This document shows, in pieces, positions 13,639 through 34,080 of a DNA stretch of 64,000 nt (the first letter of the stretch is position 1; each line of letters starts with the position of its first letter). The DNA is taken from the NCBI RefSeq assembly GCF_007954275.1, contig NZ_VOLT01000003.1:1-64000 (forward strand). The letters run 5' to 3'. The translations under genes were made by a program, and so were the position numbers. The notes beneath the pieces are model-generated. The model was given only the letters and a program-made list of their open reading frames with translations. It made no database searches and was not told the origin of the DNA. This stretch comes from Colwellia demingiae (GTDB lineage: Bacteria > Pseudomonadota > Gammaproteobacteria > Enterobacterales > Alteromonadaceae).

Positions 13639-13741
13639 TTGACAAAGAAAAGGCAAAGCACGCGAAAACGTGTTACGCAAAACCACCGGTCTAAGGGTAA
13701 AGTTTAATTATTTCTACTTTATCTATGACAGCGGAGTCACC
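13639..13741 (+). promoter_or_regulatory. Cyclic di-GMP-I (GEMM) riboswitch
   Basis: The conserved GEMM-I core is plain: GGCAAA (13652-13657), a P2 hairpin with GAAA-type loop (CACG...CGTG, 13659-13672), ACGCAAA (13675-13681), CCACCGGTCTAAG (13683-13695) with the tetraloop-receptor side, a P3b hairpin (GTAAAGT/ACTTTAT), and CTATGACAGCGGAGTCACC (13723-13741). A TGAC/GTCA pair can close P1. Downstream, CCCGTGG (13758-13764) followed by TTTTTT could pair with CCACCGG (13683-13689) in a competing terminator, which would make it an ON switch; this part is inference and the pairing has one mismatch. It lies 61 bp before the exported-protein gene. Confidence 0.85.
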
Positions 13742-13802
13742 TCGTTAACAGGTACATCCCGTGGTTTTTTCTTTTATTAACTCCATAATTAAGGTTTATA
13801 AA

Positions 13803-14162
13803 ATGAAAAAATTATTAATAGCTTCAACCATCACAGCTTTAACATTAACGTCTGTTCTAACTACACCAAAGGCACAAGCTGCTGACATTGCGACAAGTAT
13901 ATGTGAGTACGTAGCAGCCGATGACAAAAAACGCATGCGTTCATTTTTAAAGACTAATAAACTTAAAATTCGTCGTATCTTCGACAATATTCAGTGTAAT
14001 GGTAAGAACTTATTAGAGTTTGCTTCAACCTCTGGTTCAGTAAAAACTGGTTCTTTGATGATTTCAAAATTACCAAAGAAAGTAGTTTCGGCTAACCTAG
14101 AGATTCTTCAAACTGGATCGCAACCATTGATAGACGCTGCCAACGCTCGCGTTAGCAGTTAA
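13803..14162 (+). CDS. Small exported protein of unknown function (DUF3718-like), under a c-di-GMP riboswitch
   Basis: 119 residues. A Sec signal peptide is evident (MKKLLIASTITALTLTSVLTTPKAQA, cleavage after AQA at about 26). The mature part has ICEYVAADDKKRMRSFLK, then RIFDNIQCNGKNLLEFA, i.e. two Cys residues in the CEYV...CNG pattern that I associate with DUF3718; they probably form a disulfide in the periplasm. The tail repeats ISKLPKK and ends in a Ser/Ala-rich stretch. The ATG at 13803 has AAGG 9 bp ahead; an in-frame ATG at 13761 would place translation inside the riboswitch terminator region and is rejected. Function unknown; regulation by c-di-GMP is suggested by the riboswitch. Confidence 0.8.
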   Translation: MKKLLIASTITALTLTSVLTTPKAQAADIATSICEYVAADDKKRMRSFLKTNKLKIRRIFDNIQCNGKNLLEFASTSGSVKTGSLMISKLPKKVVSANLEILQTGSQPLIDAANARVSS

Positions 14163-21484: not shown

Positions 21485-22132
21485 TCAAACTAGAGAAAGT
21501 GGTTCATTTTTAGTAATTGGCGCCCCAACCCCTGCAGCAACATAAGGAATAACTCGCTCGATAACGCCAGCTATATCTAACTTATTGTCAAAATCATTTT
21601 GAGCAATATCAATCAAAGCTTCACTTGATGACATAGTAAAAACTATAGTGCCCATAGTAAAATGCAAACGCCAAAATATTTCTTCTGCACTTAACTCAGG
21701 GTAAGCAATGTTAACTGCTTTGGTAAAATTAGTAAAAACATCAGGATATTGAGTTGTTAAAAACCATCGTAAAAAACCCTGACTATCGGTATAACCGCGT
21801 CCTAATAACTGCAGAAAGGTACTGGTACCATTTTCTTTAAACTCATTAAGGTGTAACAGTGGCCCTATAAAAGCAGAAAAAACTTCATGTAAGGTTGGTT
21901 TGAGTTCAGCTTGGCAAATGAGTGAAAGTGCAGACTCCAATCGAGGAGATAGTTCATCCATATAGCGAGACATAACTGCTTTAATTAACTCTTTTTTAGA
22001 GCCAAAATGATAGTTTACTGCCGCTAAATTGACATTAGCCTGACTAGTAATTTCTCTTAAGGACGTACCATTAAAGCCTTTATTGGCAAAAAGTACATCG
22101 GCGGCATCTAATATTTTATTTTTGGTACTCAT
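21485..22132 (-). CDS. psrA: TetR-family regulator, PsrA-like (fatty-acid metabolism)
   Basis: 215 residues. The N-terminal helix-turn-helix (ILDAADVLFANKGFNGTSLREITSQANVNLAAVNYHFGSKKELI, 7-50) is close to that of PsrA, the acyl-CoA/fatty-acid-responsive repressor of Pseudomonas and Shewanella. The ligand domain keeps the PsrA-like pattern LLGRGYTDSQGFLRWFL and IFWRLHFTMGTIVF. A palindrome TTTAAACA-CC-TGTTTAAA lies 130 bp upstream and fits an autoregulatory site. Identification as PsrA rests on remembered family resemblance. Confidence 0.72.
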   Translation of the reverse strand: MSTKNKILDAADVLFANKGFNGTSLREITSQANVNLAAVNYHFGSKKELIKAVMSRYMDELSPRLESALSLICQAELKPTLHEVFSAFIGPLLHLNEFKENGTSTFLQLLGRGYTDSQGFLRWFLTTQYPDVFTNFTKAVNIAYPELSAEEIFWRLHFTMGTIVFTMSSSEALIDIAQNDFDNKLDIAGVIERVIPYVAAGVGAPITKNEPLSLV

Positions 22133-22262
22133 ACGTCAACTTCTAACTGCTTGCTGTTTTAATTATTTAATGATTTAGCATATATCCCCTTTACCAATCA
22201 AGATGCAGACTTCAGACAGATGAGTGCATTTAAATGGTAATGGCTATAAACTAAACAACTAG

Positions 22263-22280
22263 TTTAAACACCTGTTTAAA
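22263..22280. promoter_or_regulatory. 18-bp palindrome upstream of the psrA-like gene
   Basis: TTTAAACA (22263-22270), a CC centre, and TGTTTAAA (22273-22280) form an exact dyad in the upstream region of the TetR-family gene. PsrA-type regulators bind dyads built on AAAC/GTTT. Likely operator; the binding protein is inferred. Confidence 0.6.
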
Positions 22281-22326
22281 ATAGCGTATTCTTTGTAAAT
22301 AGGTCAAGCTTTTAAAAACCGCTTAA

Positions 22327-22580
22327 CCAGATTATTTCAAAATGTATTGTACATCATCTCTATTACAATTCATTACGCTATCTATACAGTAAAATACAGG
22401 CTGAGCAATTATTATTAACTCAGTTTCTAGCAAGCAGTGATTTTAAAACTCTCTGTTCTTATTAACTCCCTTATATATCATTGTTTTTGTTTATTATTGT
22501 TTTTATATCTCAACCCAGTTTCATGTTGTAGTTTGCTCATTCATTTTGAATGAGCTTTTTTTTGCCAAAAATTTAAGCTG
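22327..22580 (+). ncRNA. Candidate small RNA gene, copy 1 of a tandem pair
   Basis: First copy of a directly repeated unit (period 259 bp). The left 90 bp are about 80% alike between copies, whereas the stretch from 22420 to 22578 is almost identical. It ends in a terminator (GCTCATTCA/TGAATGAGC, 22535-22555, then eight T). A possible -10 TATACA lies at 22383-22388, but no good -35 is seen. No open frame of note crosses the unit. An unpaired ACTCCC with U-rich surroundings (around 22466-22471) could be a seed. Identification as an sRNA is inference from promoter-like start, conservation pattern and terminator; no known family was recognised. Confidence 0.5.
22535..22563 (+). terminator. Rho-independent terminator of repeat copy 1
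   Basis: GCTCATTCA and TGAATGAGC form a 9-bp stem around a short T-rich loop (22535-22555), followed by eight T residues. It is repeated exactly 259 bp further on. Confidence 0.85.
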
Positions 22581-22584
22581 TATA

Positions 22585-22838
22585 CCAGATTTTTTTCAAA
22601 ATGCACTGTACATCACCACTATTACAAATCGTTACGGTATCTATACAGTAAAACACAGGGCGAGCATTTATTATTATCTCAGTTTCTAGCAAGCAGTGAT
22701 TTTAAAACTCTCTGTTCTTATTAACTCCCTTATATATCATTGTTTTTGTTTATTATTGTTTTTATATCTCAATCCAGTTTCATGTTGTAGTTTGCTCATT
22801 CATTTTGAATGAGCTTTTTTTTGCCAAAAATTCAATCT
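22585..22838 (+). ncRNA. Candidate small RNA gene, copy 2 of a tandem pair
   Basis: Second copy of the unit at 22327-22580. In the 3' part only one or two bases differ (for example AACCCAG in copy 1 and AATCCAG in copy 2), while the upstream part has many changes. The TATACA word, the ACTCCC segment and the terminator are all kept. Tandem sRNA twins with shared 3' parts are known in gammaproteobacteria (Omr- and Qrr-like cases), but this one does not look like any of them. It ends about 100 bp before the peptidase gene on the same strand. Confidence 0.5.
22794..22822 (+). terminator. Rho-independent terminator of repeat copy 2
   Basis: Same 9-bp stem and eight-T tail as the terminator at 22535-22563. 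Its presence means the peptidase gene at 22940 needs its own promoter in the 117 bp that follow. Confidence 0.85.
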
Positions 22839-22939
22839 GTTTAATCCTAAGTAACTATTTTCCTTATAAACTTTGTATCAAGCAAACAATTTTATATACT
22901 AGCCTCACCTAACAACTTCACTTTAATAATTATTATAAA

Positions 22940-24799
22940 ATGAAATATATTACGAAAACATTTAAGTTTACAGGTCTCGCATTAGTTATTGCCGCTTCTT
23001 TAACTGCATGTAATCAAGAACCAAAACAACAAGCTTCGGTAGAAAAAGCGACAAAAATTAGCGCACAAGCAGCATTAACGGCAACAGATGCCCAACAGTT
23101 CTTAGATAATGTTGCTAAAGAAATGGTGACGTTAAACTTAGAAGGTTCACGTGCTGCATGGATTTACGCTAATTTTATCACGGAAGATACCGCATCATTA
23201 GCTGCTGAAGCCGATCAAAAGTCCACTGATGCTGGTGTAAGATACGCCATGCAAGCTGCAACTTTTGACGACGTAGACGTTAATCCGACACAACGTCGTC
23301 AATTAAATGTCTTAAAGCAAAGTTTGGTTATGCCTGCGCCACAAGATCCAGAAAAGTCAGCTGAATTAGCGACAATAGGCGCTAAGCTGGGCAGTATTTA
23401 CGGTAAGGGTAGCTACACCACTAAAGCAGGTGAAAAACTTAGCTTAGGTGATATGACGTCGAAAATGGCTAACTCTCGTGATTATGATGAATTACTTGAA
23501 ATGTGGACCGGTTGGCGTGAAATCAGCCCAGAAATGAAACCACTTTATACTCGTCAAGCTGAGCTTGCGAACGAAGGTGCCAAAGGTTTGGGTTATCAAG
23601 ATTTAGGCGCAATGTGGCGCTCTAACTATGATATGCCTGCCGATGATTTTGCTAAAGAACTCGATCGTTTATGGGGACAAGTTAAGCCTCTATATGATGA
23701 CTTACATTGTTATGTAAGAACTGAGTTAGGTGAAACTTACGGTACTGATAAAGTTGCACAAGACAAACCTATCCCAGCGCATTTATTGGGTAATATGTGG
23801 GCTCAGTCTTGGGGTAACATCTATGATTTAGTCGCTCCACAAGATGCAGATCCTGGTTATGACGTAACTAAGCAATTAGCCGAGCATAACTACGATGAGA
23901 TAAAAATGGTTAGAGGCGCTGAGAAGTTCTTCACATCATTAGGCTTTGATGCTTTACCAGAGACTTTTTATACTCGTTCATTGTTTACTAAACCTGCTGA
24001 TAGAGACGTAACTTGTCACGCCAGCGCATGGGATCTTGATGCTAAAGACGATATTCGCATCAAAATGTGTATACAGAAAACAGGTGAAGAATTTAACGTT
24101 ATTCACCACGAATTAGGGCACAACTTCTATCAACGTGCTTACAAAGACCAGCCAGTCTATTTCCAAAACAGTGCTAATGATGGTTTCCATGAAGCAATCG
24201 GTGATACCATTGCCCTATCAGTTACACCTAAATATTTAAAAGAAATTGGCTTAATTGATACCATTCCTGATGAATCAAAAGATATTGGTTTATTGATGAA
24301 ACAAGCGCTTGATAAAATCGCTTTCATTCCGTTTGGTTTGATGGTTGATCAATGGCGTTGGAAAGTTTACTCAGGTGAAATTAAGCCTGAAAACTACAAT
24401 ACTTCATGGTGGGAATTACGTGAGAAATACCAAGGTGTTGCAGCGCCTATAGATCGTGATGTTAACGCATTCGACCCCGGAGCTAAGTATCATGTTCCCG
24501 CAGGCGTTCCGTACAGTAGATACTTCCTGGCACACATTCAACAATTTGAATTCCATCGTGCGTTATGTGAGATATCAGGTAATACTGACCCTATTCACCG
24601 CTGTTCAATCTATAACTCAAAAGAAGCAGGTACTGCGCTTAATACCATGTTAGAAATGGGTTCAAGCCAGCCATGGCAGCAAGCTTATAAAGTAATAACG
24701 GGTAATGAGCAAATGGATGCTACCGCTATATTAGATTACTTTGCACCATTACATGTTTGGTTGAAAAACAAAAACCAAGGTAAACAATGTGGTTTTTAA
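22940..24799 (+). CDS. Peptidyl-dipeptidase A (M2/ACE-like) lipoprotein
   Basis: 619 residues. A lipoprotein signal is present (hydrophobic 11-20, lipobox LTAC with Cys24), so the enzyme is anchored in the periplasm or at the outer membrane. The zinc motif HHELGH (His390, Glu391, His394) with the downstream HEAIGDT supplying the third ligand identifies gluzincin family M2, which removes C-terminal dipeptides. The length fits single-domain bacterial ACE homologues. It is monocistronic, bounded by a terminator before and a bidirectional one after. Probably a nutritional peptidase. Confidence 0.92.
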   Translation: MKYITKTFKFTGLALVIAASLTACNQEPKQQASVEKATKISAQAALTATDAQQFLDNVAKEMVTLNLEGSRAAWIYANFITEDTASLAAEADQKSTDAGVRYAMQAATFDDVDVNPTQRRQLNVLKQSLVMPAPQDPEKSAELATIGAKLGSIYGKGSYTTKAGEKLSLGDMTSKMANSRDYDELLEMWTGWREISPEMKPLYTRQAELANEGAKGLGYQDLGAMWRSNYDMPADDFAKELDRLWGQVKPLYDDLHCYVRTELGETYGTDKVAQDKPIPAHLLGNMWAQSWGNIYDLVAPQDADPGYDVTKQLAEHNYDEIKMVRGAEKFFTSLGFDALPETFYTRSLFTKPADRDVTCHASAWDLDAKDDIRIKMCIQKTGEEFNVIHHELGHNFYQRAYKDQPVYFQNSANDGFHEAIGDTIALSVTPKYLKEIGLIDTIPDESKDIGLLMKQALDKIAFIPFGLMVDQWRWKVYSGEIKPENYNTSWWELREKYQGVAAPIDRDVNAFDPGAKYHVPAGVPYSRYFLAHIQQFEFHRALCEISGNTDPIHRCSIYNSKEAGTALNTMLEMGSSQPWQQAYKVITGNEQMDATAILDYFAPLHVWLKNKNQGKQCGF

Positions 24800-33521: not shown

Positions 33522-33636
33522 CACTTTTACAGTCAAAGCGAACAATTTGTTCAAAGAATAAAACTAAAGCTTTTCTCTTCCTCTATAACCCCCTATAATT
33601 TTGCTATTGAATTACTTATCACTTTAGAGAGTTAAT

Positions 33637-34080
33637 ATGGCTGAACAAAACGAAGAACTTAAAAGAGCTGGATTAAAAATCACCCTGCCTAGAATAAAGA
33701 TCCTCAGTATTCTTCAACAGCCAAATAATCAGCACATCAGTGCAGAAGATGTTTATAAAATATTATTAGAACAAAATGAAGAAATTGGTTTAGCGACTGT
33801 ATACCGAGTATTAAACCAATTTGATGATGCTGGCATTGTTACTCGCCATCACTTTGAAGGCGGAAAATCAGTATTTGAATTAGCTCATAAAGCTCACCAC
33901 GATCATTTAGTTTGTTTAAAATGTGGTAAAGTTGTTGAGTTTGAAGACAATGTCATTGAACAAAGACAGAGTGATATTGCTGTAGCACATAAAATTAAGC
34001 TGACCAACCATAGCTTGTACCTATATGGTGAGTGTGAAGACCAAGTAGCTTGTGAATCTTTTAGAAAAAAGAATCAATAA
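33637..34080 (+). CDS. fur: Ferric uptake regulator
   Basis: 147 residues. N-terminal winged helix (LPRIKILSILQQ ... GLATVYRVLNQFDDAGIV), then the dimerisation domain with HHFEGGKSVFEL, the metal-rich HKAHHDHLVCLKCG (Cys93, Cys96) and a second Cys pair (Cys133, Cys139) that can form a structural zinc site. It represses iron genes with Fe2+. It shares the classic neighbourhood fldA-fur. Confidence 0.96.
   Translation: MAEQNEELKRAGLKITLPRIKILSILQQPNNQHISAEDVYKILLEQNEEIGLATVYRVLNQFDDAGIVTRHHFEGGKSVFELAHKAHHDHLVCLKCGKVVEFEDNVIEQRQSDIAVAHKIKLTNHSLYLYGECEDQVACESFRKKNQ

Follow-up and report, generated by a model that had tools for sequence, protein, structure and literature searches.

The window, by which we mean the whole 64,000-nucleotide stretch of DNA analysed here, contains a gap of 807 bp, as the first-pass annotation had measured it, between psrA, a divergently oriented gene for a TetR-family repressor, and a gene for an M2 peptidase of the angiotensin-converting-enzyme family. 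Two direct copies of one unit lie head to tail in this gap with a spacing of 259 bp and an identity of 93%, so the tandem duplication described from the sequence at first pass is real, and Tandem Repeats Finder reported a repeat at 22326-22840 with a score of 909. The flanking genes, the repeat copies and two short elements beside them are as follows, with the basis for each in brackets.

21485-22132, minus strand: psrA, TetR-family repressor, divergent neighbour (NCBIfam NF053516 PsrA, 308.4 bits, cut-off 300)
22261-22282, unstranded: palindromic AGTTTAAACACCTGTTTAAAAT, perhaps a PsrA operator (similar words seen by eye in many psrA gaps; putative name)
22332-22584, plus strand: repeat copy 1 (sequence comparison, Tandem Repeats Finder)
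22591-22843, plus strand: repeat copy 2 (sequence comparison, Tandem Repeats Finder)
22895-22900, plus strand: TATACT, a possible -10 of the M2 peptidase gene's own (sequence; similar words by eye before M2 in several relatives)
22940-24799, plus strand: M2 peptidase, downstream neighbour (Pfam PF01401, 749.4 bits)

The copies differ at 17 of 253 aligned bases, of which 13 fall in 22334-22418, one (at 22514) in the next 155 bp and three in 22574-22582. It had been claimed that the 3' 160 bp carry one or two differences, which is right (one in the 155 bp after 22418), and that the upstream part differs at one position in six; the divergence is indeed uneven but the actual upstream rate is about one in seven. 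A whole-genome search with a 191-base query (5.23 Mb, 37 contigs) found these two copies and no other; many dispersed copies had been named at first pass as a refuting finding. Repetition and inverted repeats would fit a functionless mobile element of the MITE or REP-like kind, but with two copies in 5.2 Mb, both here, and with the same locus occupied in other genera, this explanation is extremely unlikely and was rejected on the outcome of the whole-genome search. Elsewhere in the window, a c-di-GMP-I riboswitch (13642-13744, plus strand, 59.3 bits against a gathering level of 35) lies directly before a 133-aa ORF at 13761-14162.

Promoter block, terminator and folding of the units

Each unit contains the elements of a predicted short transcript. 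The covariance model R1 named in this list is described in the next section.

22362-22390, plus strand: promoter block of unit 1, with ATTACA at 22362-22367, a second TTAC at 22373-22376 and TACAGT at 22385-22390 (column conservation)
22396-22563, plus strand: predicted sRNA 1, start about 22396-22399, about 165 nt (promoter block, conservation, terminator)
22465-22474, plus strand: C-rich core ACTCCCTTAT of sRNA 1, a putative anti-Shine-Dalgarno seed (CTCCC conservation; loop in compact relatives)
22519-22534, plus strand: TTTCATGTTGTAGTTT directly before the terminator of sRNA 1 (25 of 26 close units have it unchanged)
22535-22563, plus strand: terminator of sRNA 1, eight T (terminator scan)
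22621-22649, plus strand: promoter block of unit 2 (column conservation; R1 match at 22621-22822, 74.3 bits)
22655-22822, plus strand: predicted sRNA 2, start about 22655-22658 (promoter block, conservation, terminator, R1 match)
22724-22733, plus strand: C-rich core ACTCCCTTAT of sRNA 2 (sequence, 259 bp after copy 1)
22794-22822, plus strand: terminator of sRNA 2 (terminator scan)

When aligned on ACAGT, 83 of 84 distinct units share a promoter block consisting of TTACA, a second TTAC 10 bp on and then ACAGTAAAAAACA. The columns of TTACA and of TTAC plus ACAGTWAAAAACA are conserved at 63-100% in these 83 units, with those of TTACA and TTAC at 77-100%, and part of this conservation is by construction because the rows were extracted with the pattern of the promoter block itself and anchored on ACAGT. 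The same stretch, beginning at unit position 36, had already stood out in an earlier blastn search that used the unmodified unit as query. A consensus promoter scan, with 7 sites found and 6.5 on average in shuffles, did not call the promoter of either unit. The word TATACA, put forward at first pass as the -10, is present, but the comparison across units points to ACAGT with an upstream TTACA in 83 of 84 cases and therefore makes TACAGT (22385-22390), with ATTACA 17 bp upstream, the likelier predicted -10 and -35. The boxes of OmpR/CpxR-type regulators resemble the spaced TTAC pair of the units.

Both copies end in a strong terminator with a 9-bp stem, a 3-nt loop and eight T, in agreement with the initial description; a terminator scan of the region gave three terminator-like sites against a shuffle mean of 0.5, and two of these are the unit ends. 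These terminators also bear on whether the units act in cis, as serial promoters and attenuators controlling the M2 peptidase gene. In gaps cut out between psrA and M2, the units do share the strand of that gene and precede it, yet a strong terminator ends each unit, the M2 gene has a possible -10 of its own past the last terminator, some psrA-M2 gaps (e.g. L042 and L043) hold no unit at all, and an attenuator does not need the conserved C-rich core described below. We consider cis action very unlikely.

An absence of protein-coding signal had been noted at first pass and is borne out by comparison with relatives. The lone ORF common to both copies, an identical hydrophobic 38-aa frame with a GTG start, is open in each and might suggest tandem type I toxin or small membrane peptide genes, but only 4 of 26 close units keep it intact, all four of them in the window's genome or its nearest relative, and the frame extends into the terminator stem. 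A small protein was rejected on these counts, and toxin or peptide genes have next to no probability.

The CUCCC singled out at first pass is kept in 23 of 26 close Colwellia units and UUUCAUGUUGUAGUUU in 25 of the 26, while across the 84 distinct units CUCC or UCCC is present in 76 and missing in eight. Units of the window's type fold little better than shuffled sequences (z -1.67 and -0.99). Many, not all, single-sequence folds of compact relatives have three elements in common, namely a hairpin at the 5' end, a small hairpin whose loop carries CUCCCU or UUCCCU, and the terminator. When this structure was applied to 13 compact relatives, 96.0% of cells were paired, against 21.5-41.2% when it was slid along the alignment, and by element pairing reached 90.1% for the 5' helix, 98.5% for the stem of the C-rich loop and 100% for the terminator. 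The covariation score in this set was 0.135 against 0.098 in shuffles, a value reached by 2 of 500 shuffles; two pairs were changed on both sides, a number matched by 244 of 500 shuffles. All seven pairs of the 5' helix vary, with compensatory changes at one, in a count that leaves off alignment A6, where the stems are out of register. A search for compensatory changes, as proposed at first pass, showed a partly compensated 5' hairpin in compact relatives and no compensated pair in the 26 close units. UUCAUACUUUCCCUAGUAUA is the same in 12 of the 13 compact relatives (one base off in L049) while the 5' helix changes.

The middle part of the unit evolves fast, such that a profile of the compact relatives reaches the window's units at E 1.3-1.4 and those of the closest relative at E 1.1. 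The window type and the compact type are therefore joined by promoter block, terminator and locus, because the profile of the middle part scarcely bridges them. No GGA occurs in either predicted transcript, and a protein sponge of the CsrB/RsmX type, for which repeated GGA in loops would be expected, was rejected.

Distribution among relatives and relation to VrrA

A DNA match to the unit was found in 44 of 197 genomes searched and in 29 of 39 of the same genus, own genome included; many of the weaker matches are confined to short stretches such as the terminator end or the promoter block. Among these matches 30 distinct loci (L003-L032) were examined, of which 23 are flanked by psrA and M2 and four, on short contigs, by one of them, while the weak matches L028, L029 and L032 have neither nearby. 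We also ran the covariance search across Colwellia and its relatives that had been suggested at first pass. The model R1, built from 22 units of other species with the window's units left out, recovers the latter with scores of 73.2 and 74.3 bits. Within the family it has matches in 35 of 246 genomes, spread over 9 of 52 genera, and in a sample of 394 genomes from the order nine matched, seven of which belong to the family. A psrA homologue lies within the fetched DNA in 27 of 30 further R1 loci examined. L238, L250 and L251 are without psrA in the fetched DNA, and L251 has M2. Named psrA loci came also from Litorilituus, Cognaticolwellia, Pseudocolwellia and Thalassotalea; units were found in L038 (Litorilituus, a twin of L027) and L044 (Cognaticolwellia) and were not found in the psrA loci L042, L043 and L046. 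In family f16 no unit was seen by eye in seven psrA loci (of nine genomes), and in family f11 there was no full-length PsrA match in 13 genomes.

Searching for the promoter pattern followed by a terminator yielded 89 units in 51 of 68 distinct psrA gaps, which include far psrA loci such as those of Vibrio and Rheinheimera; removal of repeats and doubtful rows left the 84 distinct units. Copy number is one in 29 gaps, two in 11, three in six and four in five, and these counts are lower bounds because of contig ends. Single units or arrays of this kind, placed between psrA and the M2 peptidase gene, occur in many Colwellia and in some further members of the Alteromonadaceae. The rows dropped were two false promoter matches (L024 and L027) and one badly aligned L019 unit, and, from the 68-gap count, rows with at least five mismatches that lack the C-rich word. 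Two other repeated arrays were noted in passing. At about 1340-1660 of L028 (G103), three short terminator-ended elements stand in a row with TTCCCT, two of them with TTTCATG, and with no psrA or M2 match in the fetched DNA; this is perhaps another C-rich sRNA array. L115 and L116 (G114) hold repeated units that have the terminator GGGCATCCAATTTGGATGCCC, resemble one another over long stretches and are unlike the present family; this is possibly another multi-copy RNA array.

Between the two copies of one genome there are, for the window's genome and its closest relative respectively, 1 and 2 differences over 145 positions of the 3' part and 8 and 7 over 57 positions of the 5' part. Copies at the same position in these two genomes differ from each other at 3 and 2 of the 57 5' columns and at 1 and 4 positions of the 3' part. 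Gene conversion between copies, suggested at first pass, is plausible on this pattern for both genomes but would not be general, because in a third genome the two copies show 13 differences over the 146 positions of the 3' part.

The units have no match to any Rfam family, whether at gathering level or up to E 10, consistent with the initial failure to recognise an sRNA family; two chance matches lie elsewhere in the gap (E 7 and 8.7). Across eight loci, the Rfam matches were VrrA in two Vibrio loci and two weaker ones in these two loci, and nothing else. VrrA lies in the vc1741-vc1743 gap, depends on sigmaE and represses ompA, according to PMC2628432. We therefore weighed whether the units are diverged orthologues of Vibrio VrrA, with the promoter replaced and the gene amplified. 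Matches to VrrA lie divergently next to psrA homologues in 29 of 30 loci from one genus taken as Vibrio, and again in Vibrio intestinalis and V. sinus, the same position that the window's units occupy. VrrA and the units are also alike in build, each with a hairpin domain at the 5' end, CUCC(C) within a U-rich stretch and a terminator, and TTCTTATTAACTCC is common to the window and many VrrA genes. The best match of R1 is the VrrA site in 30 of 30 VrrA loci, at 15.3-32.9 bits where the best of 31 controls reached 20.4, and R1 scores 43.2 bits at the psrA site of one genome in this VrrA-bearing genus.

Against this, the Rfam VrrA model gives no match to the units up to E 10 (membership level 50 bits), and it matched 33 of 394 genomes, none of them in the window's family. 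R1 itself scores 28.3 and 30.7 bits on two unrelated terminator regions, and its other match outside the family, at 39.3 bits, lies away from psrA. A core-only profile misses both VrrA and the 43-bit locus, but it also scarcely finds units of the window's type (E 1.1-1.4), so it weighs on neither side. No GAACT, as for a sigmaE promoter, occurs on the plus strand in 22133-22400, and the conserved promoter block is of another type. Finally, a psrA-proximal sRNA with GAACT upstream, described next, is a better positional and promoter match for VrrA than the units are. Orthology of the units with VrrA is accordingly doubtful, though it keeps some standing.

This second short sRNA-like gene, recognised by CTGATCTGTCAATC with at most two mismatches, lies beside psrA in 19 of the 68 gaps (e.g. 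L240, L241, L113 and L027). In 16 of the 19 it has a GAACTT-type, sigmaE-like promoter, often followed by CTCCCTGG or TCCTGAC and then CTGATCTGTCAATC, with a terminator usually after the latter. It is absent from the window's psrA gap. The only CTGATCTGTCAATC in the window's genome, at up to one mismatch, is at L253 (C11:44531-44544, minus strand), after ACTCCCT and upstream of an ORF that reads as HtpG-like; this element is possibly a relocated relative of the second sRNA. At L292 (2377-2512, plus strand; family f21), a psrA-gap region preceded by GGAACT scores 43.2 bits with R1, although Rfam's weak VrrA match in that genome is elsewhere. The psrA-proximal sRNA of the GAACT type may be the true counterpart of VrrA. 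A speculative scenario, which we think unlikely as a whole, is that of an old psrA-linked locus for envelope-controlling RNAs derived from one ancestral sRNA gene. Vibrio would have kept a single sigmaE-driven VrrA and the Alteromonadaceae a sigmaE-type sRNA plus a separately controlled OmpR-type array of one to four units. All of them would use a C-rich stretch against Shine-Dalgarno sequences, and the dose would be set by copy number and gene conversion.

Proposed mode of action and comparison with known sRNAs

The units show the general hallmarks of sRNA genes, namely a conserved predicted promoter block, an intrinsic oligo-U terminator and no conserved protein. The proposal that they are twin small-RNA genes of no known family emerges from the comparison across relatives as the best reading, and judging from sequence the two units are very probably independent sRNA genes. 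That they are separately transcribed, trans-acting base-pairing sRNAs working by the full mechanism proposed here is rather probable. Each unit would be transcribed separately into an sRNA of about 165 nt that acts in trans by base pairing. By analogy, an OmpR-type response regulator may bind the TTAC-N6-TTAC direct repeat and activate transcription, and the U-rich RNA with its oligo-U tail may bind Hfq. The exposed CUCCC(U) could then pair with Shine-Dalgarno sequences of the AGGGAG type and block ribosomes on mRNAs for outer-membrane proteins, with TonB-dependent receptors as the leading candidates. Tandem copies would raise the dose, and the copy-specific 5' parts might permit different control.

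Outer-membrane proteins as targets are a tentative suggestion, one we hold to be possible rather than likely. In a post hoc comparison that spanned seven motifs and two start rules and used 30 of the 38 TonB-receptor matches in the window's genome, GGGA was found at most 25 nt upstream of 12 of 30 TonB-receptor starts and of 10 of 89 other genes (Fisher p 0.0018, uncorrected), and under the other start rule of 9 of 30 and 6 of 89. This enrichment may be a habit of TonB-receptor leaders, because GGGG and GGGAG are also enriched before these starts and AGGG, AGGGA, AAGGGA and GGAG are not. For duplexes with TonB-receptor starts the mean energy is barely below background (-21.5 against -20.3), and since the energies hardly separate the two sets this target class is a lead. 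Genes with an OmpA domain (8 of 8 matches) gave no signal as targets, with a duplex energy of -17.6 that is not below background. Judged by eye, leaders like CCAGGGAGUAAACAUG would form seven base pairs with ACUCCCU. Genome-wide, the seed complement ACAACATGAAA has nine sites (two of them the units) against four for a reversed-pattern control, and AGGGAGTTAATA with one mismatch has 38 (again two of them the units) against 27, so that both are near control. The fur leader in the window (33626-33637, plus strand) contains AGAGAGTTAATATG, one mismatch from the full complement of the unit core TATTAACTCCCT; this site on the start of fur, at 33626, is possibly due to chance.

Open-licence literature, judged by titles and abstract openings, held no paper on this locus; the sRNAs of Shewanella piezotolerans have reportedly been the subject of one published study. 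For cold marine bacteria, a large group, the units offer a putative sRNA family that is open to experiment. Their copy number varies naturally from one to four at one place, so that the reasons for keeping sRNA siblings can be examined directly, and the locus also makes it possible to test whether psrA loci are a general home of envelope-controlling RNAs.

We regard the units as a new sRNA family of an already known kind. The sigmaE-dependent sRNAs of the RybB/MicA type target outer-membrane proteins, the class suggested for the units, but they differ in promoter type and the units have no Rfam match to them. VrrA (RF01456) resembles the units in its divergent position beside psrA and in a CUCC core within a U-rich stretch before the terminator; it differs in promoter type, its Rfam model does not match the units, and the tandem arrays are a feature of the units. 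PrrF1/PrrF2, AbcR1/AbcR2 and Qrr are multi-copy sibling base-pairing sRNAs (PMC4211561) and would be like the units in this respect, though again the units have no Rfam match. OmrA and OmrB of Enterobacterales are tandem siblings that OmpR activates and whose targets include the outer-membrane receptors FecA and FepA (PMC12692685, PMC4211561). Like the units, they sit as sibling genes in tandem within a single intergenic region and resemble each other in some parts but not in others. At 82-88 nt they are shorter than the predicted 165 nt or so of the units, which lie at another locus, reach up to four copies and show no Rfam match. By analogy, OmrA/OmrB would nonetheless be the nearest model for the way in which the units may work.
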